IMG/VR virus record: IMGVR_UViG_3300027824_000011
Span: 1-33,830 of that record
Source of the DNA: a virus
Reading direction: 5' to 3' (one strand)
DNA: 33,830 nucleotides
The position numbers and the translations under genes are program-made. The notes beneath the pieces were generated by a model that was not told the origin of the DNA, did no database searches, and saw only the letters and a program-made list of their open reading frames with translations. This document shows, one piece after another, positions 2,653-21,946 of the stretch (within the stretch, counting starts at the first letter, position 1; each line of letters begins with the position of its first letter).

Positions 2653-2825
2653 TGGACCCACAACCAGCACTAAAGAACAAGCGCCAGGGGTTCCTCAAGG
2701 GAGCCAAGGAGGCATCCTACGGCTCGGCCAAGGATGTAAGGTTCCTGTTCCCTAAACCGGCCTTTAAGGGAACTGATGGTTACAGACGCCCGACCACTAC
2801 GGCGGACGTGGGAGTACCGCAGTAA
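2652..2825 (+). CDS. 57-residue basic protein preceding the portal
   Basis: A short frame starting MDPQPALKNKRQGFLKGAK and ending in TADVGVPQ. It is basic and Lys/Gly-rich, with no recognised domain. Support comes from its exact fit: the ATG overlaps the preceding stop (TAATG at 2650-2654) and its own stop overlaps the portal ATG (TAATG at 2823-2827), with no gap on either side. Translational coupling to the portal is likely. Function unknown. Confidence 0.6.
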   Translation: MDPQPALKNKRQGFLKGAKEASYGSAKDVRFLFPKPAFKGTDGYRRPTTTADVGVPQ

Positions 2826-5104
2826 TGGCTATGCAGGGCAGTTCGACTTCGGCGAACTCGAAGGCGTGGCAATATGGCCACATGAACATGATCGACAAGA
2901 TCCCCTTCGGGGATCAGCAAGTCGGCGCGGCCATCGAGACCTACGTTAACACGATCGACACCAACAAGCAGTCCCGCCACTGGATTCGGGCAGTCCAGTG
3001 GGTCGAGAACGTGCTCTTTACGGCAGGCCGCCACTACATCGACGACGTGCTTATCAGCCGCCTCAGCCGGGACGTGAACAATGACCTGAGCGTGATCCAG
3101 GAGGCGACCCGCTCCATCCCGCGCCCAACGAACGACATCCTGGGCCGGTACATCGAGACGAACATCGCCCTCTTCACCGAGAACCGGCCGCGCCCGCGCG
3201 TGACCCCTAAGTCGGACAAGCAGGACGACAAGGACGCAGCAGAGCTGTCCGAGCTGACCCTGGAATACCTCTGGGAGTCGCTGGACATGCCGGAGTTGCA
3301 CCGCGAGCTAGCCCGCATCATCCTACTCTGCGGCGTAGCCTGGATGGAGATTTGCTATGACCCCGCAGAGCGCCGCCACATTGCCGTCCCGGCCACCCAG
3401 ATGCAGCCCTCGACCACGATCCCGGTGGGACCAAATGGAGAGTCTATTCAAGTCCCTATCCCGCGCCCGGTCCCGCTCTACGACGCAGCCGGCCGCCCGC
3501 AACTAACTAGCCAGGTGGAGTACGGCGACATAACCGCGAAGGTAATCAGCCCCTTCGAGATGCACTTGCCGATCGCCCACTACTGGAACGACGAGACCAT
3601 GGGCTGGGTGATCCGCGAGCAGTACATCCCGAAGGACGCCCTCCTAGACCGGTTCGACGTGTCGGACAACAAGGATCTCAACAAGAAGAACGGGTGGTTC
3701 ATTGACAGACTCGAAGACGTGCAGCCTCACAACATCCAAAACCTACCCCTCTGGTGGTGGGAGCGGATGGCTGACTTGGTGGAAGGACCAGGACCTACCC
3801 TGTGGGTGGGTACACCTGAGCAATGGTCAGATTACACCGTTCTTCGCTGGATGGACCGACGACCCAACAAAGATTGGCCGCTGGGTCGTTCTGTCCTCCT
3901 AGCAGGCAACCAGGTAATCTACGACTCTCCGAAGGACCGCGGGGCACGCGCATACAACCCCCGGTGGCCAAAGCGCTGGCACCCCTACATCCGCTTCCGC
4001 TGGGAAGGCATGCCCGGCAGCATCTACGGCCGGTCGCTAGTAGCCAAGATCCTACCGCTCCTGAAGCGCGTGAACTCGATCGACACCACCCTCATCATGT
4101 GGCGCCGAACGGTACCTATCGCAACCTGGATCGTGCCCAAGGGCGCGCACCCGGTTGAGGATTTCTGGAGCGCGAAGCCCGGAAACATCTGGGAGTATGA
4201 CCCTCGGCGCACCGTGGGGCAGAAACCTGAAGCTGTCTTCCCGCAGCCATTCCCGGATGCAGCCTTGAAAGAACGGGAAATGATGATGTCGGAGATCGAG
4301 CAGATTGCAGGCACCGAGGAGATCCTGAGAGGTCAACGCCCTGAAGGCGTCAACTCGGCGAGCATGCTCGACGTACTCCGCAAGCAAGCCCTGGCTTCGC
4401 GCTCCGCTATCCTCCAGGCATGGGATGAGTCCCTTCAGTGTGAGGGCACGATCCTACTGGAAGAGACTATCAAGAACGTGCAGAACGACCCGCGGTACGC
4501 AGAGCGTATCCGCATCCTGGCACGGGAGAAGCTGTCGCGGCTCTCGATCGACACCTTCAGCGGCACCGACCTGTCGGACAACGTGGTCTGCCGCGTGGAC
4601 ACAGCCTCGCTGGCCCTAGTGTCGAAGGAAGCCCGTCAGGCGCGCGTGCTGGAGTTCCTACAGTACGCCCCGAACCTGATGACGCTGCCTCTACCGCTGC
4701 GCCAGGCCGTGGTGGAAGAGCTACAGCTCAGCACTGGTCTGACGCCGCAAGGCCCGGACATCGAGCGCGCAAAGCGCATGATTACCTGGGTCAAGACGAA
4801 CCAGTTCCAGCGCTGCATCCCGTTTGCGGAAGACGACCCGCAGGTGTTCATCGAACTCCTTGTGGACGAAGAGAAGAGCGAGAGCTGGTGGGACTTGAGC
4901 ACAGAGCAGCAGAACATGATTATCTGGCTCATCGAGAAGTACAAGATCCAGCAGCAGTTCCGTATGCAACAGGCAATGCAGGCACAACTAGCGGGTGCGC
5001 AGGGCGGCGGTCCTCCAGGTGGCGGTGGTCCACCAGGCGGAGCAGCCGGTGGGGGCGGCGCACCTCCGGGACCAGGAGGCCCACCAGGTGGCGCAGCAGC
5101 TTAA
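2825..5104 (+). CDS. Portal protein
   Basis: A 759-residue protein, in the size range of podovirus portals (P22-like and N4-like about 720-760). It forms the dodecameric ring at the packaging vertex, through which DNA enters and leaves and to which the tail attaches. Visible portal-like features are an N-terminal helical region, a Tyr/Trp-rich central wing (WVIREQYIPK, PYIRFRWEGMPGSIYG) and the helical stretch IYGRSLVAKILPLLKRVNSI followed by the LRGQRPEGVNSASML segment. The last ~40 residues are an unusual Gly/Pro tract (GGGPPGGGGPPGG). It lies upstream of scaffold and capsid genes as expected for a portal. The assignment rests on size, pattern and order. Confidence 0.82.
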   Translation: MAMQGSSTSANSKAWQYGHMNMIDKIPFGDQQVGAAIETYVNTIDTNKQSRHWIRAVQWVENVLFTAGRHYIDDVLISRLSRDVNNDLSVIQEATRSIPRPTNDILGRYIETNIALFTENRPRPRVTPKSDKQDDKDAAELSELTLEYLWESLDMPELHRELARIILLCGVAWMEICYDPAERRHIAVPATQMQPSTTIPVGPNGESIQVPIPRPVPLYDAAGRPQLTSQVEYGDITAKVISPFEMHLPIAHYWNDETMGWVIREQYIPKDALLDRFDVSDNKDLNKKNGWFIDRLEDVQPHNIQNLPLWWWERMADLVEGPGPTLWVGTPEQWSDYTVLRWMDRRPNKDWPLGRSVLLAGNQVIYDSPKDRGARAYNPRWPKRWHPYIRFRWEGMPGSIYGRSLVAKILPLLKRVNSIDTTLIMWRRTVPIATWIVPKGAHPVEDFWSAKPGNIWEYDPRRTVGQKPEAVFPQPFPDAALKEREMMMSEIEQIAGTEEILRGQRPEGVNSASMLDVLRKQALASRSAILQAWDESLQCEGTILLEETIKNVQNDPRYAERIRILAREKLSRLSIDTFSGTDLSDNVVCRVDTASLALVSKEARQARVLEFLQYAPNLMTLPLPLRQAVVEELQLSTGLTPQGPDIERAKRMITWVKTNQFQRCIPFAEDDPQVFIELLVDEEKSESWWDLSTEQQNMIIWLIEKYKIQQQFRMQQAMQAQLAGAQGGGPPGGGGPPGGAAGGGGAPPGPGGPPGGAAA
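5074..5079 (+). promoter_or_regulatory. Ribosome-binding site inside the portal gene
   Basis: AGGAGG lies inside the portal's Gly/Pro-coding tail, 8 nt before GTG 5088. It selects that GTG as the start of the next gene, which has no ATG nearby. Confidence 0.65.
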
Positions 5105-7764: not shown

Positions 7765-8151
7765 ATGGACGACAGAGTAATCATCTTCTTGGACGACGAC
7801 CCGAACCGGGCGGCGCTGATGTACCAGCGTATGAAGATCGTGGATCGTGATCGTACCATGTGGTGTCAGACAGCGGATCAAACGATTGAGGCGCTGAAGA
7901 GCGAGATGAAGCGCCTCCACCAGGTTCATCTTGACCACGATCTAGGTGGTCAGACTTACGTTGACTCCCGGCGCGAGGATACCGGCATGGAGGTTGTGCG
8001 CTGGCTGGAGAAGCGAAGTGAGAGCGAACTCTTCTGGTTCAAGAAGGCTGAATGGAGGGTCCACACATGGAATCCACCGGCCGGCGAGCGAATGACAGAG
8101 CGGCTTCGCGCGCTAGGCTTCCAAGTAGTCTACCGCCCGTTTGGGATGTAA
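7765..8151 (+). CDS. Receiver-like protein, cyclic-phosphate-processing (cREC) type
   Basis: A 128-residue single-domain protein. In order: LDDDPNR at residues 9-15 (acidic pocket of a receiver-like fold), LDHDLGG at 56-62, DTGMEVVRWL at 72-81, and VHTWNPPAGERM at 99-110. This arrangement (LDD.P.R; DHDLG; tG..vv.W; vH..NP.G..rM) matches the small family I know as cREC, described as a receiver domain predicted to handle nucleotide or RNA cyclic phosphates; it is found in phages and bacteria. There is no DNA-binding domain, so it is not an ordinary response regulator. It lies 8 nt after a low-complexity virion gene and abuts the endolysin. Substrate and role here are unknown; the family assignment is from memory of the motif pattern. 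Confidence 0.62.
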   Translation: MDDRVIIFLDDDPNRAALMYQRMKIVDRDRTMWCQTADQTIEALKSEMKRLHQVHLDHDLGGQTYVDSRREDTGMEVVRWLEKRSESELFWFKKAEWRVHTWNPPAGERMTERLRALGFQVVYRPFGM

Positions 8152-8652
8152 ATGAGCACATTCGACACTATCTCTGCGTTCACGCTCAAGGCCGAGGGTG
8201 GGTACAGCAATGACCCAGAAGACCCAGGAGGAGAGACCAACTACGGCATCTCCAAGCGGGACCACCCCAACACCGACATCAAGAACCTTACAATCCCACA
8301 AGCACTCCAAATCTACCACGACGAGTATTGGGTGCGCATGTCAGGTGATCTTCTCCCACCCCTCACAGCTTGTGCTTTGTTCGACTTTGGATTCGCTAGT
8401 GGAGTATCTACGGGAGTCGAACATCTTCAAAACCTCGCCGGAGTCGCCCCCGATGGACAGCTCGGACCACGCTCCATTGCCGCCATCAAAGGACGAGACG
8501 ACCATTCCCTGGCACTAGCTTTGTGCAAAGCGCGAGTCAACTACGACATCTCGCTAGGCAAGGCTAGGTACGAGATGGGCTGGGTGGACCGGGTGGTGGA
8601 CCTGATTGGGCTTCTTTGGACAATGAGCGCACCCCCAGCTAAACAAGCCTGA
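8152..8652 (+). CDS. Endolysin: GH108 N-acetylmuramidase with peptidoglycan-binding domain
   Basis: A 166-residue protein that cleaves the peptidoglycan glycan backbone at lysis. Residues 13-31 contain the family signature AEGGYSNDPEDPGGETNYGI, with Glu15 as the predicted catalytic acid. The middle (ALFDFGFASGVSTGVEHLQ) and the C-terminal part (GVAPDGQLGPRSIAAI) match the companion PG_binding_3 region. There is no signal peptide or transmembrane segment, so export needs a holin, and no clear holin is adjacent. The ATG directly follows the stop of the cREC gene. It is the last gene before promoter copy 2. The length fits the family. A virion-associated use is possible because it lies inside the structural region. 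Confidence 0.87.
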   Translation: MSTFDTISAFTLKAEGGYSNDPEDPGGETNYGISKRDHPNTDIKNLTIPQALQIYHDEYWVRMSGDLLPPLTACALFDFGFASGVSTGVEHLQNLAGVAPDGQLGPRSIAAIKGRDDHSLALALCKARVNYDISLGKARYEMGWVDRVVDLIGLLWTMSAPPAKQA

Positions 8653-12431: not shown

Positions 12432-12865
12432 TGGCTGACAATCCATTCCCGCTGTCCAGCGCCCTACGGGGCATGGACACGGGAGGCGGCTTCGATCCCA
12501 GCAGCCCTGGGGTTGAGGGGGCAGAACACGAGTCCCCACCGAACCCGTTCGACAACCCGGGTGCGTCGAGCCTTGCCCAGTTCTCCAACTCGCTCAACGC
12601 ACAGCGTCGGGTGCGTGCGGCTATGAAGCCCGTACTTCAGCGTGCGATGGATTACCAGGGAGACGCAACGGGTTCGCCACGAACAGCTCAGGCAGCCAAC
12701 CAGAAGATGACGCACGCCAAGCTGATGTTCAAGCCGTTGTACCGCTCGCAGCCGTACACAATCCCAGGCACGAAGACCATGGCCCCTGATCCAGAGATGG
12801 GTCTGACGACGGACCAGGTGCAGACCGTGCGAAACCGCGCATACTTCGCGGCGGCCACGGACTAA
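12431..12865 (+). CDS. Small protein of unknown function
   Basis: A 144-residue protein starting MADNPFPLSSALRGMDTGGG. The first ~50 residues are Pro/Gly/Ser-rich, then a helical basic region (LNAQRRVRAAMKPVLQRAMD), then a segment with LMFKPLYRSQPYTIPGT. It is joined to both neighbours by TAATG junctions and sits in a run of tiny genes between the Gly/Pro-repeat protein and the scaffold. No domain recognised; likely a minor virion or assembly protein by context. Confidence 0.58.
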   Translation: MADNPFPLSSALRGMDTGGGFDPSSPGVEGAEHESPPNPFDNPGASSLAQFSNSLNAQRRVRAAMKPVLQRAMDYQGDATGSPRTAQAANQKMTHAKLMFKPLYRSQPYTIPGTKTMAPDPEMGLTTDQVQTVRNRAYFAAATD

Positions 12866-13047
12866 TGGAAAACGTAGCCACCATGGGCGACATGCTCATG
12901 CGCCAATACCCGCCGCTTGCGCCGCCCCCGGGGTTGCGCAAGCGGGCTAAGGGCAAGGCGGTCGGTGGCATCATGATCGGCAACACCCCGGCCGGTGGGC
13001 CACAGCCAAACCCATCAACGTACAAGTCAACGACAGGACACTACTAA
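12865..13047 (+). CDS. 60-residue protein with major-capsid-like N-terminus
   Basis: The first 15 residues, MENVATMGDMLMRQY, match the first 15 of the major capsid protein, MQTFATLGDMLLRRY (9 of 15 identical; 34 of 45 bases identical by my count). The rest differs: a proline stretch, a basic patch LRKRAKGK, and a Gly/Pro tail ending YKSTTGHY. Both ends are TAATG junctions. Inference: a duplicated capsid N-arm placed on a short basic tail, which might bind the same partner as the capsid arm (scaffold, portal or neighbouring subunit). Whether it enters the virion is unknown. Confidence 0.62.
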   Translation: MENVATMGDMLMRQYPPLAPPPGLRKRAKGKAVGGIMIGNTPAGGPQPNPSTYKSTTGHY

Positions 13048-13265
13048 TGAGTCAGTTCAGCGGCGGTAACTTCAAAGGCGCACAGTTTGCCGGTACCAAC
13101 ATCAAGGGCGGTGCCGAGGGTGGTCCTCAGAAGGAGCCGACTGGCGGTCTAGGTCCAAAGGCCAAGAGCAGCTTCCTGGCCGGTAAGAAGCAGAAACTAG
13201 CCCTTGGAGGCTTGCCCGAGGCACAATCGCAGAAGGGCAGTGAGGGCCAAGTAATCACAGGGTGA
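13047..13265 (+). CDS. Small Gly/Lys-rich protein
   Basis: A 72-residue protein starting MSQFSGGNFKGAQFAGTN. It contains SSFLAGKKQKLALGG, similar in style to the FLAGQKG segment of the 11208-11840 product. Basic, Gly-rich, probably disordered. The start overlaps the previous stop (TAATG). No function assigned. Confidence 0.55.
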   Translation: MSQFSGGNFKGAQFAGTNIKGGAEGGPQKEPTGGLGPKAKSSFLAGKKQKLALGGLPEAQSQKGSEGQVITG

Positions 13266-13268
13266 TTT

Positions 13269-13694
13269 ATGGATACGCCCGATGAGGGCCAGAAGTGCAA
13301 GTCCTGCAAGATGTTCAAGGATTTGCTAGAGTTTGACACAGACCTGAGAGCTAAAAACAAACGGGCAAAGACTTGCCTGCGTTGTCAGGAGATTAAGCAT
13401 GGCCTATCTAACCCCGGATCAACCTACCCAGGACGGCGGAAGCGACCTTCGGACGAAGGCGATGTCGCAGGGAGCATTTCCAGCGGGTCAAGCGCTGGAG
13501 CAGTTCTTCCAGGTGTTCGGGGGCCAGACCACCCCTCAACCTCCGCCCGGCGATCACGAACAAGACAACCAGCACTTCCGCAAGGGCCAAGCACAGCCAG
13601 CCCAGCCGTCCGCGCCTGCTTCCCCCATCTTGGCCGCAGAGCCAGCAGCCCCGGCAGCTCCAGCGGGTCCGGCAGCTCCAGCACCGGAGGGTGA
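13269..13694 (+). CDS. Cys4 zinc-ribbon protein with tail overlapping the next gene
   Basis: The first ~42 residues contain CKSC at residues 10-13 and CLRC at 36-39 with basic residues between (RAKNKRAKT), a typical small zinc ribbon. The frame then runs on to 141 residues through Ser/Arg/Pro-rich sequence that looks like the shadow of the 13399-13785 gene, overlapping it by 296 nt in the +1 frame. The ribosome site before ATG 13269 is weak (AGGG). The functional unit may be only the ribbon; nucleic-acid or protein binding is the usual role of such domains. The tail may be overprinted or meaningless. Confidence 0.5.
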   Translation: MDTPDEGQKCKSCKMFKDLLEFDTDLRAKNKRAKTCLRCQEIKHGLSNPGSTYPGRRKRPSDEGDVAGSISSGSSAGAVLPGVRGPDHPSTSARRSRTRQPALPQGPSTASPAVRACFPHLGRRASSPGSSSGSGSSSTGG

Positions 13695-13785
13695 AGGCGA
13701 CGAGGACGTTGCCCAGCAGTCGGATCAGGGAGATCAACCAGATCAAGGCGATGACAACGACGCAGACGATCAAGGTAACGCCTAA
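13399..13785 (+). CDS. Acidic, Pro/Ala/Gln-rich protein
   Basis: A 128-residue protein starting MAYLTPDQPTQDGGSDLRTK. The middle is Ala/Pro-rich (PAAPAAPAGPAAPAPEG) and the C-terminus is strongly acidic (DQGDDNDADDQ). AGGAG at 13387-13391 is 7 nt from the ATG, much better than the site of the overlapping zinc-ribbon ORF. Net negative charge contrasts with its basic neighbours. It ends in a TAATG junction. A head-interior or DNA-mimic-like role could be imagined, but nothing beyond composition supports one. Confidence 0.58.
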   Translation: MAYLTPDQPTQDGGSDLRTKAMSQGAFPAGQALEQFFQVFGGQTTPQPPPGDHEQDNQHFRKGQAQPAQPSAPASPILAAEPAAPAAPAGPAAPAPEGEGDEDVAQQSDQGDQPDQGDDNDADDQGNA

Positions 13786-13979
13786 TGCCACAGATGATGC
13801 CCGGCGGCAAGCTGCGTAACAAGGCGAAGGGTCGGCCTAACAACTGGATGACCGGCCTGGACGGCCTTGGCCGCAACAAGCTACCACAACCGACTTCCAC
13901 CGTGGATCAGATTGCCCTCGGCACCGGTATGCAGGGCGGCAAGTCTGCCACTTCGACGTACAACCCCGGTACAGCGTAG
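13785..13979 (+). CDS. Small basic protein
   Basis: A 64-residue protein starting MPQMMPGGKLRNKAKGRPNN. The LRNKAKGR patch resembles LRKRAKGK in the 12865-13047 product and LKAKAKGK in the 22782-23000 product. The rest is Gly/Thr-rich. Translationally coupled to the previous gene by TAATG. Function unknown. Confidence 0.55.
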   Translation: MPQMMPGGKLRNKAKGRPNNWMTGLDGLGRNKLPQPTSTVDQIALGTGMQGGKSATSTYNPGTA

Positions 13980-13987
13980 GAGCCCCC

Positions 13988-14158
13988 ATGGCCGACAAAT
14001 GGATGCAGAAGGTCCACCCCAAGAAGGGCGCCCTACACCGCCAGCTCGGTATCCCCTCGGGGGATAAGATCCCAACGGGTCTCCTCCGCGAGAAGGCCAA
14101 GGCAGGCGGCACGCTAGGCAAGCGCGCGAACCTGGCCCTCCGCTACCGAGGCCAGTAA
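13988..14158 (+). CDS. Small conserved-type phage protein (KKGALHRQLGIP motif)
   Basis: A 56-residue frame starting MADKWMQKVHPKKGALHRQL, followed by GIPSGDKIPTGLL and ending KRANLALRYRGQ. The pattern KKGALH..LGIP...KIP...L..A...G.LGKRA.LA is one I recognise from short unannotated genes in many phage structural regions; its function is not established. AGGAG lies just upstream of ATG 13988 and the stop overlaps the next ATG (TAATG). Strongly basic. Confidence 0.62.
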   Translation: MADKWMQKVHPKKGALHRQLGIPSGDKIPTGLLREKAKAGGTLGKRANLALRYRGQ

Positions 14159-14346
14159 TGCCTAATTCAAGCAACATTCGACGCTCGCTGCGTATGCTAG
14201 ATAGTGATACCGAAAATCACCTAGCCCGCATAGAAGCGTTGGTTGCTCGCACGCCAATGCCTCCCGAGGAACGGACTAGGTTTGAAAGGACGCTTCACAG
14301 ACTGCGAGGCCAAGTTACGTTCCTACTTGATCTTACGAGGTTCTAA
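14158..14346 (+). CDS. Small helical protein in lower-GC cassette
   Basis: A 62-residue protein starting MPNSSNIRRSLRMLDSDTEN. Charged, probably two helices (HLARIEALV; RTRFERTLHRLRGQVTFL). The DNA here is lower in GC than its surroundings (27 of 60 bases at 14161-14220, against 40 of 60 at 13801-13860), as in the methyltransferase gene that follows through a TAATG junction. The two probably arrived together. Function unknown. Confidence 0.55.
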   Translation: MPNSSNIRRSLRMLDSDTENHLARIEALVARTPMPPEERTRFERTLHRLRGQVTFLLDLTRF

Positions 14347-15080
14347 TGCCGGATCGCAATCGAACAGATCGACTAGGGCTACCCCCGAGGCCGTCTCTAG
14401 CAACGCCCAGGGAGTCCCTTAACAAAGCCGCAAGTGTCCTGAAGTGGAGACGCTGGGAGGTTCAAAAGGAACATGGAGAGGAAGGCAATCAACTAAGATA
14501 TGTTTCCATGTTCTACAACGACCTACTTGCCGGGAAGTCTTGGAAGATCTTGGAAATCGGGGTATCAGCAGGCGGTTCGGCAATGATGTTTGGTCTTGGG
14601 TCCTCAACGTCAACGTATGTGGGCTTGGACATAAACCTAAAGAACGTCCAGACGTGCCCAGAAGGCTATCCTAAAAATGTGACCTTGCTTGAGGGGGACG
14701 TAAAAGATCCCAAGATTGTCGAGCGCCTTGCAGCCCTTGGTCCTTTTGACCTTATCATCGACGATGGTAGCCACTACATGGAAGATCAGGTGGCCGCCCT
14801 CAAAGGCTTGTTCCCTCTACTGGCTCCAGGTGGGTACTTCGTGATAGAGGACATCAACCTACTCCGAAGTAGGGGGTATACGAACAATAGAGGGATAGAG
14901 CAGGTTAGAGAAGGGGCTACTATTCTAAAGTTCCTGGCTGACACAGCCTTTGACAATATCCTGCCGGCCAAACCCGAAGACTGGTTCTTCGGCCTGAGTT
15001 CAATCGAGTTCAAGCGCCTGGCATCACCCGCAGCCTCCTTGGTTGTTCTAAGAAAGGGCTCTGATGCCAGCAGCAGTTGA
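14346..15080 (+). CDS. Class I SAM-dependent methyltransferase, sugar O-methyltransferase-like
   Basis: A 244-residue protein. SAM-binding motif I is ILEIGVSAGGS at residues 68-78; the acidic end of strand 2 is YVGLDI (91-96, Asp95); DLIIDDGSH is at 135-143; and APGGYFVIEDI at 160-170. The IDDGSH plus GG.fVIED combination is typical of the MycE/TylF/CmcI-like group acting on sugars and small molecules. Residues 1-60 are a basic, helical extension. GC is low (23 of 60 bases at 14461-14520), suggesting recent acquisition. Likely substrates are glycans on the virion or host surface; this is inference. It does not look like a DNA methylase, since no DPPY or PC motif is visible. Confidence 0.75.
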   Translation: MPDRNRTDRLGLPPRPSLATPRESLNKAASVLKWRRWEVQKEHGEEGNQLRYVSMFYNDLLAGKSWKILEIGVSAGGSAMMFGLGSSTSTYVGLDINLKNVQTCPEGYPKNVTLLEGDVKDPKIVERLAALGPFDLIIDDGSHYMEDQVAALKGLFPLLAPGGYFVIEDINLLRSRGYTNNRGIEQVREGATILKFLADTAFDNILPAKPEDWFFGLSSIEFKRLASPAASLVVLRKGSDASSS

Positions 15081-15237
15081 ACGCATCATTCACGGGATTG
15101 AGAAAAGCAAGACCCTCTCCGGTATGAGCGATCCGAAGGAGAAGTACGGTCACGCCATCGCCATCGCCAAGGCCAGTGGGCAGCTTCGCCAGAAGGGCAA
15201 GCACCTAGCGCTCGGGCGCGGGCAGAAGGAAGACTAA
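15064..15237 (+). CDS. Small conserved-type phage protein (AIAIAKASGQL motif)
   Basis: A 57-residue frame starting MPAAVERIIHGIEKSKTLSG, overlapping the methyltransferase end by 17 nt. It contains YGHAIAIAKASGQLRQKGK. The pattern iiH.iek......(Y/K)..AIAia..aGql.kG resembles short genes found in many phage virion regions, often near the KKGALH-type gene as here. Function not established. It ends in a TAATG junction. Confidence 0.6.
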   Translation: MPAAVERIIHGIEKSKTLSGMSDPKEKYGHAIAIAKASGQLRQKGKHLALGRGQKED

Positions 15238-15782: not shown

Positions 15783-15917
15783 AACTATCTATCCACACGG
15801 ATCGAAGAGTCTCCAGGGCGCTCGGTCACGGGGTGCAATCCTGCACCTGGCATCGCCCGGCCGTAAACTGTGACTCCCTCGCCACCTCTCCATGGCGCAG
15901 ACCGGAGGCAAATGAGC
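15783..15917 (+). promoter_or_regulatory. Leader region of the capsid unit
   Basis: About 135 nt lie between promoter copy 3 and the scaffold start, whereas copies 2 and 4 sit 9-10 nt before their genes. It contains the hairpin GGTGCA (15832-15837) / TGCACC (15842-15847) with a 4-nt loop, extended by a G-U pair. I find no convincing gene or tRNA in it. GGAGG at 15904-15908 precedes the scaffold start. A long leader before the most highly expressed genes suggests translational or mRNA-stability control. Confidence 0.45.
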
Positions 15918-16859
15918 ATGTCCACAGAAGCAACACAGGCGGCTCTCGAAGCAGCCCTAGAAGCTGAAAACAAAGGTGGCGCCGCAGGCGCCGCGGGTGC
16001 CGGTGGAGGCACCGAACAGGTAAGTGCAGGTACGGCGGCACAGCAGTCACCGTCGCCAGGGGCAGCCAAAGCTCCCGCTGGGACTGGCAAGACAGCTCAA
16101 GACCGAATCAACGAACTCGTAACGCAGCGTGATTCTTTCAAGGGCAAGTTCGAGGCTCTGGAGACAGAGCACAAGCAGGTCCAAGAAAGTCTACGGACTG
16201 CGACGAACGTGATCGCCGCAAAGGAAACCGACTCCCAGATCGTTGCCGCACTCAAGAATCTCGCCCAGGACCCGAAGTATCGGCCACTGGTTGAGAAGCT
16301 GGACAAGGCAATCCAGGGAATCGACACTGACGTAGAGCAGGGCAAGACAACTCCCGAGGAAGGCCAGAAGCGTATCGAAGCGCTCCTCGCACAGACCCGG
16401 GCTCAGGTGTCGCACGAGATTGCCGACCAGAAGGCTGATCTCCTACTTGCCCGAGCTGACGCGGTAGCGGAACGCTACCTCGCTGCACTGCCGGCAGAGT
16501 ACACAGAGGACGACAAGAAGGTCATTGCGCACCTCTGGACTGACAAGGTTGACTGGGAAGGCATCGAAAAGAACCCGGGCGTAATGCCCAAGGAGCTAGC
16601 ACGCTCCCTGGAACAAACCCTGGAACTTTACGGCCGACCCAAGGGTCTGGTCCAACAGGCACATGCCCCCGCGCAAGCCGCCAAGGTGGAAACATCCGAA
16701 GAGCGGATTGCGAAGCTGCTTGCGAAGGACTACAGCGGGATCAAGGACGTGAAGGGCGTTGACATCACTGGTAAGGAGTCCACCAAGAAGGTGGCCACCG
16801 TGAGTGACGACGACTTCGCAGCCGATCTAGCCAAAGTCATCCGCGAGTTGAATCGCTAG
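15918..16859 (+). CDS. Capsid scaffolding protein
   Basis: A 313-residue protein starting MSTEATQAALEAALEAE. The N-terminus is Ala/Gly-rich, followed by long coiled-coil segments (RINELVTQRDSFKGKFEALE; EKLDKAIQGIDTDVEQGK) and a basic/acidic helical C-terminus (ADLAKVIRELNR). It directs assembly of the capsid shell and then leaves. The class is inferred from charge, coiled coils and position immediately before the major capsid gene. ATG 15918 is 9 nt after GGAGG; the alternative ATG 15912 (adding Met-Ser) would be only 3 nt away, and a GTG at 15870 has no ribosome site. Confidence 0.78.
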   Translation: MSTEATQAALEAALEAENKGGAAGAAGAGGGTEQVSAGTAAQQSPSPGAAKAPAGTGKTAQDRINELVTQRDSFKGKFEALETEHKQVQESLRTATNVIAAKETDSQIVAALKNLAQDPKYRPLVEKLDKAIQGIDTDVEQGKTTPEEGQKRIEALLAQTRAQVSHEIADQKADLLLARADAVAERYLAALPAEYTEDDKKVIAHLWTDKVDWEGIEKNPGVMPKELARSLEQTLELYGRPKGLVQQAHAPAQAAKVETSEERIAKLLAKDYSGIKDVKGVDITGKESTKKVATVSDDDFAADLAKVIRELNR

Positions 16860-16899: not shown

Positions 16900-18111
16900 A
16901 TGCAAACATTTGCCACCCTAGGCGACATGCTTCTTCGCCGATACGTGGTTGACTTCATCGCACAGATGCAGCAACTATCGGCACCCATCTACAGCCGCCT
17001 CAAGGAAAACAGCCGCTTCATCCCATCGGGTGACGGCGCGTACTTCCCTGTGCGTGTAGACGGTAACGAATCGGGCGGCGGTTGGCGTCAGACAGACGAC
17101 AACTCGCTACCTAGCGCAGGTAACGAGCGCATCAAGCAGGCTCGCGTACGACCAAAGAAGTACTATCATGTAGTGACCTTCTCCGGTCTAGCCGAGGCTG
17201 TCAGCCGCCGAGGCGGTGAAGATGCGTTCGCGGCAGGCATCACGGACGCCATCTCGACGGCCGTGAAGCGTGCAGGCGCAAACTTCGAAGTGACCTTCCT
17301 CCGCTCGGACGGAACTGGCCAGCTCACCACGGTAAACGGCTCGCAGACAAGCGTGACCCTCGTTGCCGTGAACGACGCTCGCCCGTTCCGCGTGAACCAG
17401 GTCGTGGTGTTCCTGAACCCATCGACCGGGCTCAAGACCGCAGGTCCCGTAACTGTGCTTTCGCGCGACGTGTCGGGTGCCACCATCACGGTGTCCTCGT
17501 CGGTTAGCCCGAACGCGAACGACGGTATCTACATCAGCGGTGAGCAGAGCGAAGCAGCAGCTCCGGCAGAAACCACGGCTCTCGGCCTCCCGGCAATCGT
17601 GGCAAACACCGGCAGCATCTACACCCTCAGCCGAGCTACCTACACGATTCTTCAGAGCAAGATCATCGCGGCCGGTACAACCGCCCTCGACGAATCCCTA
17701 CTCCGACGTATCCGCAAGCAGCTCATGGTTGAAACTGACGTTGGTAGCCTAGACGGGTTCGCAATGATCTCGAACTGGGACCAATTCGATCGCTACACCG
17801 AAATTGCTCTACCCTTCCGTCGCTTCAACGACATGAAGCTAGAGCTAGGTGCTCAGCAGGAAATGACGACCTTCGAAGGCCGCCCGTGGCTCCTCTCGTG
17901 GGCAGCCGACCCGACGATCGTGTACTTCCTCAACCTGGGCGCAATTGAGCGCGGTGTGGTTCGACCACTCTCGATCGACGAGCGTGTCAACATGGCCTGG
18001 GTTCCCGGCCAGGATGCGTTCACCGTACTCCTCAAGTACTACGGCGAGAACGTGGGTCGCTACATCAACCAGACTGGCGCAATCACCGGTCTAACGACCC
18101 CGACCTACTAA
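16900..18111 (+). CDS. Major capsid protein (probable HK97 fold)
   Basis: A 403-residue protein, which self-assembles into the icosahedral shell. Features: an N-terminal arm MQTFATLGDMLLRRY; a long helix (VVDFIAQMQQLSAPIYSRLK, about 16-35) of spine type; VRPKKYYHVVTFSG, as in an E-loop/P-domain transition; a beta-rich middle insertion (QTSVTLVAVNDARPFRVN through ISGEQS); and an A-domain-like C-terminal half ending INQTGAITGLTTPTY. GGAG stands 7 nt before ATG 16900. It follows the scaffold and is bracketed by hairpins. The fold is inferred; the role is strongly supported by order and length. Confidence 0.82.
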   Translation: MQTFATLGDMLLRRYVVDFIAQMQQLSAPIYSRLKENSRFIPSGDGAYFPVRVDGNESGGGWRQTDDNSLPSAGNERIKQARVRPKKYYHVVTFSGLAEAVSRRGGEDAFAAGITDAISTAVKRAGANFEVTFLRSDGTGQLTTVNGSQTSVTLVAVNDARPFRVNQVVVFLNPSTGLKTAGPVTVLSRDVSGATITVSSSVSPNANDGIYISGEQSEAAAPAETTALGLPAIVANTGSIYTLSRATYTILQSKIIAAGTTALDESLLRRIRKQLMVETDVGSLDGFAMISNWDQFDRYTEIALPFRRFNDMKLELGAQQEMTTFEGRPWLLSWAADPTIVYFLNLGAIERGVVRPLSIDERVNMAWVPGQDAFTVLLKYYGENVGRYINQTGAITGLTTPTY

Positions 18112-21271: not shown

Positions 21272-21946
21272 ATGCTGCCTAACACGCTGCGTCCGCGCGG
21301 CTATCGGCAAAGGGAACTCAAACCTGGCCTTCACGTTCCGACCGGTTTCATTGGGGACCTGAAGGCAATCGACGAACATCTCTGGCTAGTCTGGCACCCT
21401 TACAGGGTGATGTACGATGACGTGATGAACGAGTACGCCGGACTGCTGGAAGATCCTCGGCACCAGATCCACGGGACCGACAACGGCCTGGAAGTCTGGG
21501 GCTGGGTGCTGAAGCACCAGGGGTATCCGATCCCTGAGGAGAAGTGGCACATCTGGCGGCTCTGCTGGCCTAACGGCTGGTGCCATATCTGCCCGCTACA
21601 GTCCACCGATGCCGGCTACTTGGGGCTGATTGCCCGCCGGCTGTACCTCCAGGCGACGACCCGAAATCGCTACGGGGACCGGGCTTGGAGCAAGAAGCTA
21701 CAGGACGACGAAGAGGCAGCTTTCGAGAAAGACTCCGCGCGAACCATGGAAATGTTCGATGCGGTGGGCCAAGAGAACAAGTGGCTTAGCGACCGAGTAA
21801 GGGAGAACTTCGAGCGGGGCATCGTTGCACCGTCAAACCCGCAGAAGGAAACCATCGTCAGTTACTCGGGCCAAGGAAACCGCAGCCGTATAGTTCGTCC
21901 GCTCGACGATACCGAAGGGGGCTTGGTTATCCCAGACAAGTGGTAG
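21272..21946 (+). CDS. Structural-region protein of unknown function, Trp-rich
   Basis: A 224-residue protein. The first ~115 residues are rich in Trp, His, Tyr and Cys (WLVWHPYRVMYDD, WHIWRLCWPNGWCHICPLQS) and look like a compact folded domain. The remainder is a charged helix (SKKLQDDEEAAFEKDSARTM) and a polar tail. A run of seven G precedes ATG 21272 as ribosome site. The two-Cys segment CWPNGWCHIC (three Cys) could bind metal. Given its place between decoration and connector genes it is likely a head or connector protein. I do not recognise the family. Confidence 0.6.
   Translation: MLPNTLRPRGYRQRELKPGLHVPTGFIGDLKAIDEHLWLVWHPYRVMYDDVMNEYAGLLEDPRHQIHGTDNGLEVWGWVLKHQGYPIPEEKWHIWRLCWPNGWCHICPLQSTDAGYLGLIARRLYLQATTRNRYGDRAWSKKLQDDEEAAFEKDSARTMEMFDAVGQENKWLSDRVRENFERGIVAPSNPQKETIVSYSGQGNRSRIVRPLDDTEGGLVIPDKW

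Follow-up and report, generated by a model that had tools for sequence, protein, structure and literature searches.

The N-terminal arm of a phage capsid protein recurs on unrelated small proteins and is a candidate capsid-targeting tag

We analysed a viral record of 33,830 bases, a single contig, referred to here as the window. An open reading frame (ORF) on the plus strand at 12865–13047 encodes the 60-residue protein MENVATMGDMLMRQYPPLAPPPGLRKRAKGKAVGGIMIGNTPAGGPQPNPSTYKSTTGHY, which starts with MENVATMGDMLMRQYP. This mini-gene is tiled into its surroundings in the manner of an operon: it shares a TAATG overlap with the preceding gene, its own stop codon overlaps the next ATG, and its GC content by codon position is about that of the neighbouring genes. 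Around it, in the interval from the portal gene (2825–5104) to an acidic scaffold candidate (15912–16859), are small ORFs that mostly encode basic proteins. The features of the locus are as follows.

2825–5104, plus strand: portal protein (PHROG 156, E 1e-20)
12865–13047, plus strand: arm-bearing mini-gene, 60 residues, predicted pI 10.1 (start and stop overlapping both neighbours; charge; GC by codon position)
12865–12909, plus strand: capsid-arm module, 15 codons, MENVATMGDMLMRQY (matching the start of the major capsid protein at 9/15 residues and 34/45 bases; arm-model matches in relatives; weak helix prediction over residues 4–14)
12910–13044, plus strand: Pro/Gly-rich basic tail, net charge +6, with GLRKRAK (charge computation)
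13047–13265, plus strand: small basic protein, 72 residues, neighbour of the mini-gene (ORF list, charge)
13785–13979, plus strand: small basic protein with a GKLRNKAK motif (ORF list, motif scan, charge)
13988–14158, plus strand: small basic protein of GALHRQLGIP type, resembling L025:6158–6334 by eye (ORF list, motif scan, charge)
15064–15237, plus strand: small basic protein with a GQLRQKGK motif (ORF list, motif scan, charge)
15912–16859, plus strand: scaffold candidate, acidic, pI 5.2, coiled-coil-like, directly upstream of the capsid gene (function inferred from position and weak coiled-coil-type Pfam matches)
16900–16944, plus strand: source arm of the capsid protein, MQTFATLGDMLLRRY (no variation at T6-L7-G8-D9 or L11-L12-R13-R14-Y15 among 26 capsid proteins)
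16900–18111, plus strand: major capsid protein, 403 residues, start MQTFATLGDMLLRRYVVDF (PHROG 14242 'major head protein', E 7.8e-19; relatives 69–80% identical)

The four ORFs that begin at 12865, 13785, 13988 and 15064 (12865–15237) have in common a basic motif of the type G-x-L-x-x-[KR]-[AG]-[KN], which has fewer or no matches in relatives and none downstream of the capsid gene or in antisense. A methyltransferase gene (14346–15080; PHROG 21658, E 5.1e-14) stands amid the small basic genes, and a glycosyl hydrolase 108 lysozyme (8152–8652; Pfam, E 3.3e-21) is encoded between portal and scaffold. In the structural region, 7765–8151 encodes a cyclic-phosphate-processing receiver domain (Pfam PF20274, E 1.8e-17), and genes resembling it by eye occur in the portal–scaffold interval of four relatives (L017, L025, L065 and L043). 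No prohead protease was recognised among the genes scanned against Pfam and PHROGs in the window, which is a fragment. The AlphaFold model of the capsid protein was poor (mean pLDDT 44.8); within it, residues about 141–220 form a confident beta domain (pLDDT mostly about 85–94), perhaps an insertion domain. A profile of the capsid protein gave no significant match to solved structures.

We found that the mini-protein and the capsid protein are identical at 9 of 15 residues and 34 of 45 bases, both at the exact N terminus, with start codons 4035 bases apart. These counts, and the full divergence that follows, are exactly as the preliminary description of this DNA had claimed, and its placement of the arm on a small basic protein coded upstream of the scaffold candidate agrees with the window ORFs, their positions and their charge. 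At the DNA level, the two peptides would by themselves give 30.4 identical bases of 45 under window codon usage, so that the observed number is only a slight excess (P = 0.04). The codons are identical at six of the seven shared positions (P = 0.012, window codon usage), which hints at a later exchange with the phage's own capsid gene, or at luck. No upstream bases are common to the two genes, and the sequences diverge directly after codon 15. A partial duplicate of the major capsid gene was rejected because DNA similarity does not reach past the arm or into upstream signals.

In a six-frame scan of the window and 47 fetched loci, the window arm scored 46 against the arm queries, and none of about 1.46 million shuffled positions scored 35 or more. 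We also restricted the scoring to ORF starts in the regions that precede 41 capsid genes. There, the arms of four small proteins (the window, L017, L025 and L043) scored 40–48 and the next ORF scored 18, a level at which 1.3 ORF starts are expected by chance; the profile includes the four small-protein arms themselves, so the informative part is the gap to the remaining ORFs. Three weak look-alikes (L037:3172, L035:8215 and L001:3569) fell within chance and were rejected as N-terminal copies. We also set aside, as a probable coincidence, an internal segment of HPFATIWDDMMNQY type in a protein encoded downstream of the capsid gene (21272–21943 in the window), which scored up to 39 in one relative and 22–33 in the others.

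Comparison with relatives showed that the copy is not a one-off. The same arm stands at the N terminus of a protein with a basic tail at L017:5248 (MTNYSTLGDNLMRKYP), L025:4899 (MITFGNLGGMLMRNYG) and L043:8573 (MSMTMATLGEQVMRKYP), which lie 4.8, 3.7 and 1.4 kb upstream of their capsid genes, respectively. We applied a 16-column arm model to 35 whole records: all 35 had the capsid arm, and only these three had a second match; in ten further records, a non-capsid match was present only in L066. Besides the window, 4 of the 45 related records thus have the arm outside the capsid gene, a count in which absences are not firm because the records are fragments. The carriers are scattered on the capsid-protein tree (four changes), and the tails of the arm proteins are mutually unrelated, with net charges of +6, +8, +17 and +21, and −3 for the L066 tail, which is not basic.

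The L066 case is a fusion. An ORF of 122 residues opens with ~34 residues that match the capsid start (62% over a 45-residue span), then continues as a zinc-finger-like protein, and it stands in a tandem run of similar genes. These small zinc-finger-like genes (L066:9995–13564) end in C..C....P..I..L..LHNWD, and the arm is fused in frame to the first of them. An interrupted capsid gene was rejected as an explanation, there being no further capsid sequence in the 49-kb contig. The L066 terminase is 42% identical over 715 residues to that in the L017 record, which places L066 in the same broad group.

Wider searches added no carriers. In IMG/VR, neither the mini-protein alignment nor the single window protein yielded a confirmed relative, the tblastn confirmation being too strict for a 15-residue match, and the L043 protein as query recovered its own record only. 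Two degenerate-DNA scans for the arm, with the Leu codons TTA and TTG outside the scan, returned unrelated matches only. Among cultured phages, the window protein had matches only at E values of at least 2 and the L017 protein had none, and phmmer over the fetched loci found no relative of the window tail.

Across relatives, the peptide itself is constrained, since synonymous sites are saturated or nearly so outside the window pair while the amino acids are kept. Pooled over four pairs, the small-protein arm differed from its own capsid arm with pS 0.62 and pN 0.32, and the small-protein arms differed among themselves with pS 0.78 and pN 0.36. Individually, L017, L025 and L043 gave pS 0.63–0.82 and pN 0.30–0.42, and the L066 fusion compared with the L029 capsid gene gave pS 0.62 and pN 0.12. 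For the window pair the two values were similar (pS 0.30, pN 0.25), and thus do not point to constraint on this one copy. A function at the nucleotide level, as an RNA element, was rejected for L017, L025 and L043, in which the synonymous codons differ from those of the capsid gene. The small-protein arms have residues in common: position 12 is Met in all four and Leu in the capsid arms compared; position 14 is Lys, Gln or Asn, in place of Arg; and position 16 is Pro in three of the four, in place of Val or Ile. Because Met12, a non-Arg residue at 14 and the usual Pro16 recur, the small-protein arms seem to form a separate lineage, or to be the product of a common constraint, rather than four fresh copies.

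The preliminary description had proposed that the arm and the mini-gene might co-vary among relatives. We ran this check and found that a small protein's own capsid arm ranked 3, 1, 5 and 5 among 14 arm types; with the four pairs alone, the true pairing was the best of 24 by similarity, though not by identity. Co-variation is not demonstrable here because the capsid arm hardly varies. The case named there as a refutation, a mini-gene beside an unrelated capsid N terminus, was not found among the relatives.

The arm can be present or absent on one and the same tail. L006, whose capsid arm is that of L017, has an armless version of the L017 tail gene at the corresponding position (MDGTPDRGRPDLWTLGLLRSNKR..., E 1.1e-12), and L082, which is closer to L017 in gene order, also has the tail gene without the arm (MTTKINYGGRPDLWTLGLLKSNKR...). 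The arm is therefore a separable module. The L017 tail stands as an independent gene, to which the arm was added in L017 or from which it was lost twice. A gene that by eye is sulfotransferase-like (GEGRSGTT start; no Pfam match) directly precedes the arm or tail gene in L017 (4644–5255) and L082 (5308–5910) and is absent from that slot in L006. In two other relatives, the capsid gene itself is interrupted just after the arm codons, at about residue 21, by an insertion of ~0.9 kb (L067:9055–11146 and L034:760–1800). The insertions encode a LAGLIDADG-type endonuclease (L067, Pfam LAGLIDADG_2, E 6.9e-17; L034, by eye) and weakly resemble group I introns (Rfam RF00028, with E values of 1.1e-5 and 1.8e-4, neither match reaching the gathering score).

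The arm behaves like an address tag, because it occurs only at the extreme N terminus, on unrelated cargo, is gained or lost independently of that cargo, and is conserved as a peptide. Our leading explanation, which we hold tentatively, is that the first 15 residues are a portable N-terminal capsid-interaction or targeting tag, copied from the capsid arm or sharing ancestry with it. Several observations count against this explanation: the arm is missing from most relatives, the window pair shows similar pS and pN, the scanned window genes include no recognised protease, the helix prediction is weak and the capsid model poor, and the tail in L066 is not basic. It is possible, with less assurance, that this phage group reuses its own capsid assembly arm to load unrelated small proteins into the procapsid, as a self-derived capsid address.

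Several other explanations are less probable. Small genes may instead have acquired the opening codons of the capsid gene by occasional recombination, the arm then being kept only for a while or for translation start. The window pair, with its shared codons and its pS close to pN, is the main reason that this reading keeps about a fifth of the weight; the L066 ORF, a plain fusion of a capsid start to another gene, and the gain or loss of the arm in the L017 group also fit. It is nevertheless unlikely, given the saturated or nearly saturated synonymous sites and lower pN of L017, L025 and L043, upstream bases that are not those of the capsid gene, and the Met12 common to four small-protein arms. 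We similarly doubt that a free arm acts as a competitor of its capsid counterpart for binding to scaffold, portal or neighbouring subunits and thereby caps, times or nucleates assembly, the kind of mechanism that the preliminary description had put forward and that is one of several, not the most economical. The shared arm core and a gene upstream of the scaffold candidate suit such a modulator, as does the SaPI1 protein CpmB, a small protein of a mobile element that copies a partner's binding end (PMC5644958). However, an essential assembly role sits poorly with an arm found outside the capsid gene in so few related records, two close relatives of L017 carry its tail gene with the arm lost or not gained, and the L066 arm, carried by a zinc-finger-like protein whose gene array lies away from the terminase end, is more readily explained as a tag.

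It is improbable that the small protein acts as a decoy against a host defence recognising the capsid arm, or that it blocks the assembly of a competing phage. Patchy presence and gain or loss of the module would fit an arms race, and small assembly-blocking proteins exist (Tab, PMC10884400), but escape from sensing would predict a diversified capsid arm, whereas the arm is not diversified. Least probable of all, and nearly refuted by the relatives, is a chance match or the convergent evolution of a common kind of short amphipathic helix: the match spans only 15 residues and the tail of the window gene has no relative found, yet the shuffled controls, the exact N-terminal position in all cases and the position-specific core TLGDxLxRxY argue against it.

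The closest parallel to a targeting tag is in phage T4, where the internal proteins are diverse yet have a conserved N-terminal capsid targeting sequence in common (PMC3012670). We read the T4 N termini as MKTYQEFIAEA (ipII and ipIII), MELITELFDE (alt), MAKINELLRE (the vertex protein gp24) and MTIKTKAELLNKW (gp23), and by eye none is similar to the arm. The N termini of gp24 and the internal proteins are counted as one kind, and the targeting stretch is cleaved by the protease gp21 (PMC5694885). Like the arm, the T4 sequence (in IPI–III and Alt) is short, lies at the extreme N terminus and is common to several otherwise unrelated small proteins, and, just as the arm also occurs on a shell protein, in T4 one kind of N terminus is found on a shell protein and on internal proteins. 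Unlike the arm, which copies that of the major capsid protein, the T4 stretch is not a copy of the gp23 N terminus; it is also cleaved by gp21, whereas the scanned window genes gave no recognised protease. By analogy, the arm would work like the T4 targeting sequence; its assignment to this class rests on that analogy, with entry into the prohead putative.

Other systems have parts of this arrangement. SaPI1 CpmB carries the RIIK motif of the C terminus of the 80alpha scaffold and binds coat protein in the same way (PMC5644958). It is, like the mini-protein, a small protein with a copied capsid-assembly contact, but in CpmB the copied part is the end of the scaffold and the gene belongs to a satellite, whereas the mini-protein copies the capsid arm and is encoded by the phage. 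A competing scaffold of the CpmB kind was rejected for the mini-protein, which by inspection has no similarity to the C terminus of the scaffold candidate (DDDFAADLAKVIRELNR) and whose arm matches the capsid protein. In phage P1, the N-terminal 30 residues of DarB suffice to bring a reporter into the capsid (PMC9024508); this packaging signal is N-terminal, as the arm is, although DarB is very large and the signal is not reported as a capsid copy. In SPN3US, the diverged head proteins gp53 and gp54 have identical N-terminal 15 residues, with a proposed role in assembly or maturation (PMC5694885). The resemblance lies in a 15-residue N terminus common to otherwise diverged proteins; unlike the arm proteins, gp53 and gp54 are paralogues with a processed propeptide that, as far as reported, is not common to the major capsid protein. 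In the literature searched, of which coverage was partial, we found no copy of a major capsid protein's own arm on another protein.

If the arm is a targeting tag, we infer that it would form a short helix ended by Pro16, whereas in the capsid protein the helix would run on. Consistent with this, AlphaFold gave a weak helix over residues 4–14 of the small protein (pLDDT about 62–68) and a low-confidence helix over residues 7–27 of the capsid protein. In the procapsid, the arm helix would take the place of the capsid arm at a site to which the latter normally binds. The most plausible site would be the scaffold's capsid-binding end or neighbouring shell subunits, with the portal another suspect; the scaffold candidate is the first suspect because the scaffold C terminus contacts the N-arm of the coat protein in P22 and 80alpha (PMC9965877; PMC5644958). 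The arm would thereby bring a small, usually basic protein into the prohead, where the basic tail could meet DNA.

Beyond T4-like and giant phages, the known signals that select small proteins for entry into the phage head are few. If the targeting explanation is true, cargo proteins could be recognised from sequence alone by their copy of the shell arm, the tag would point to the partner of the arm in assembly, and the arm would serve as a minimal peptide with which to load proteins into these capsids.
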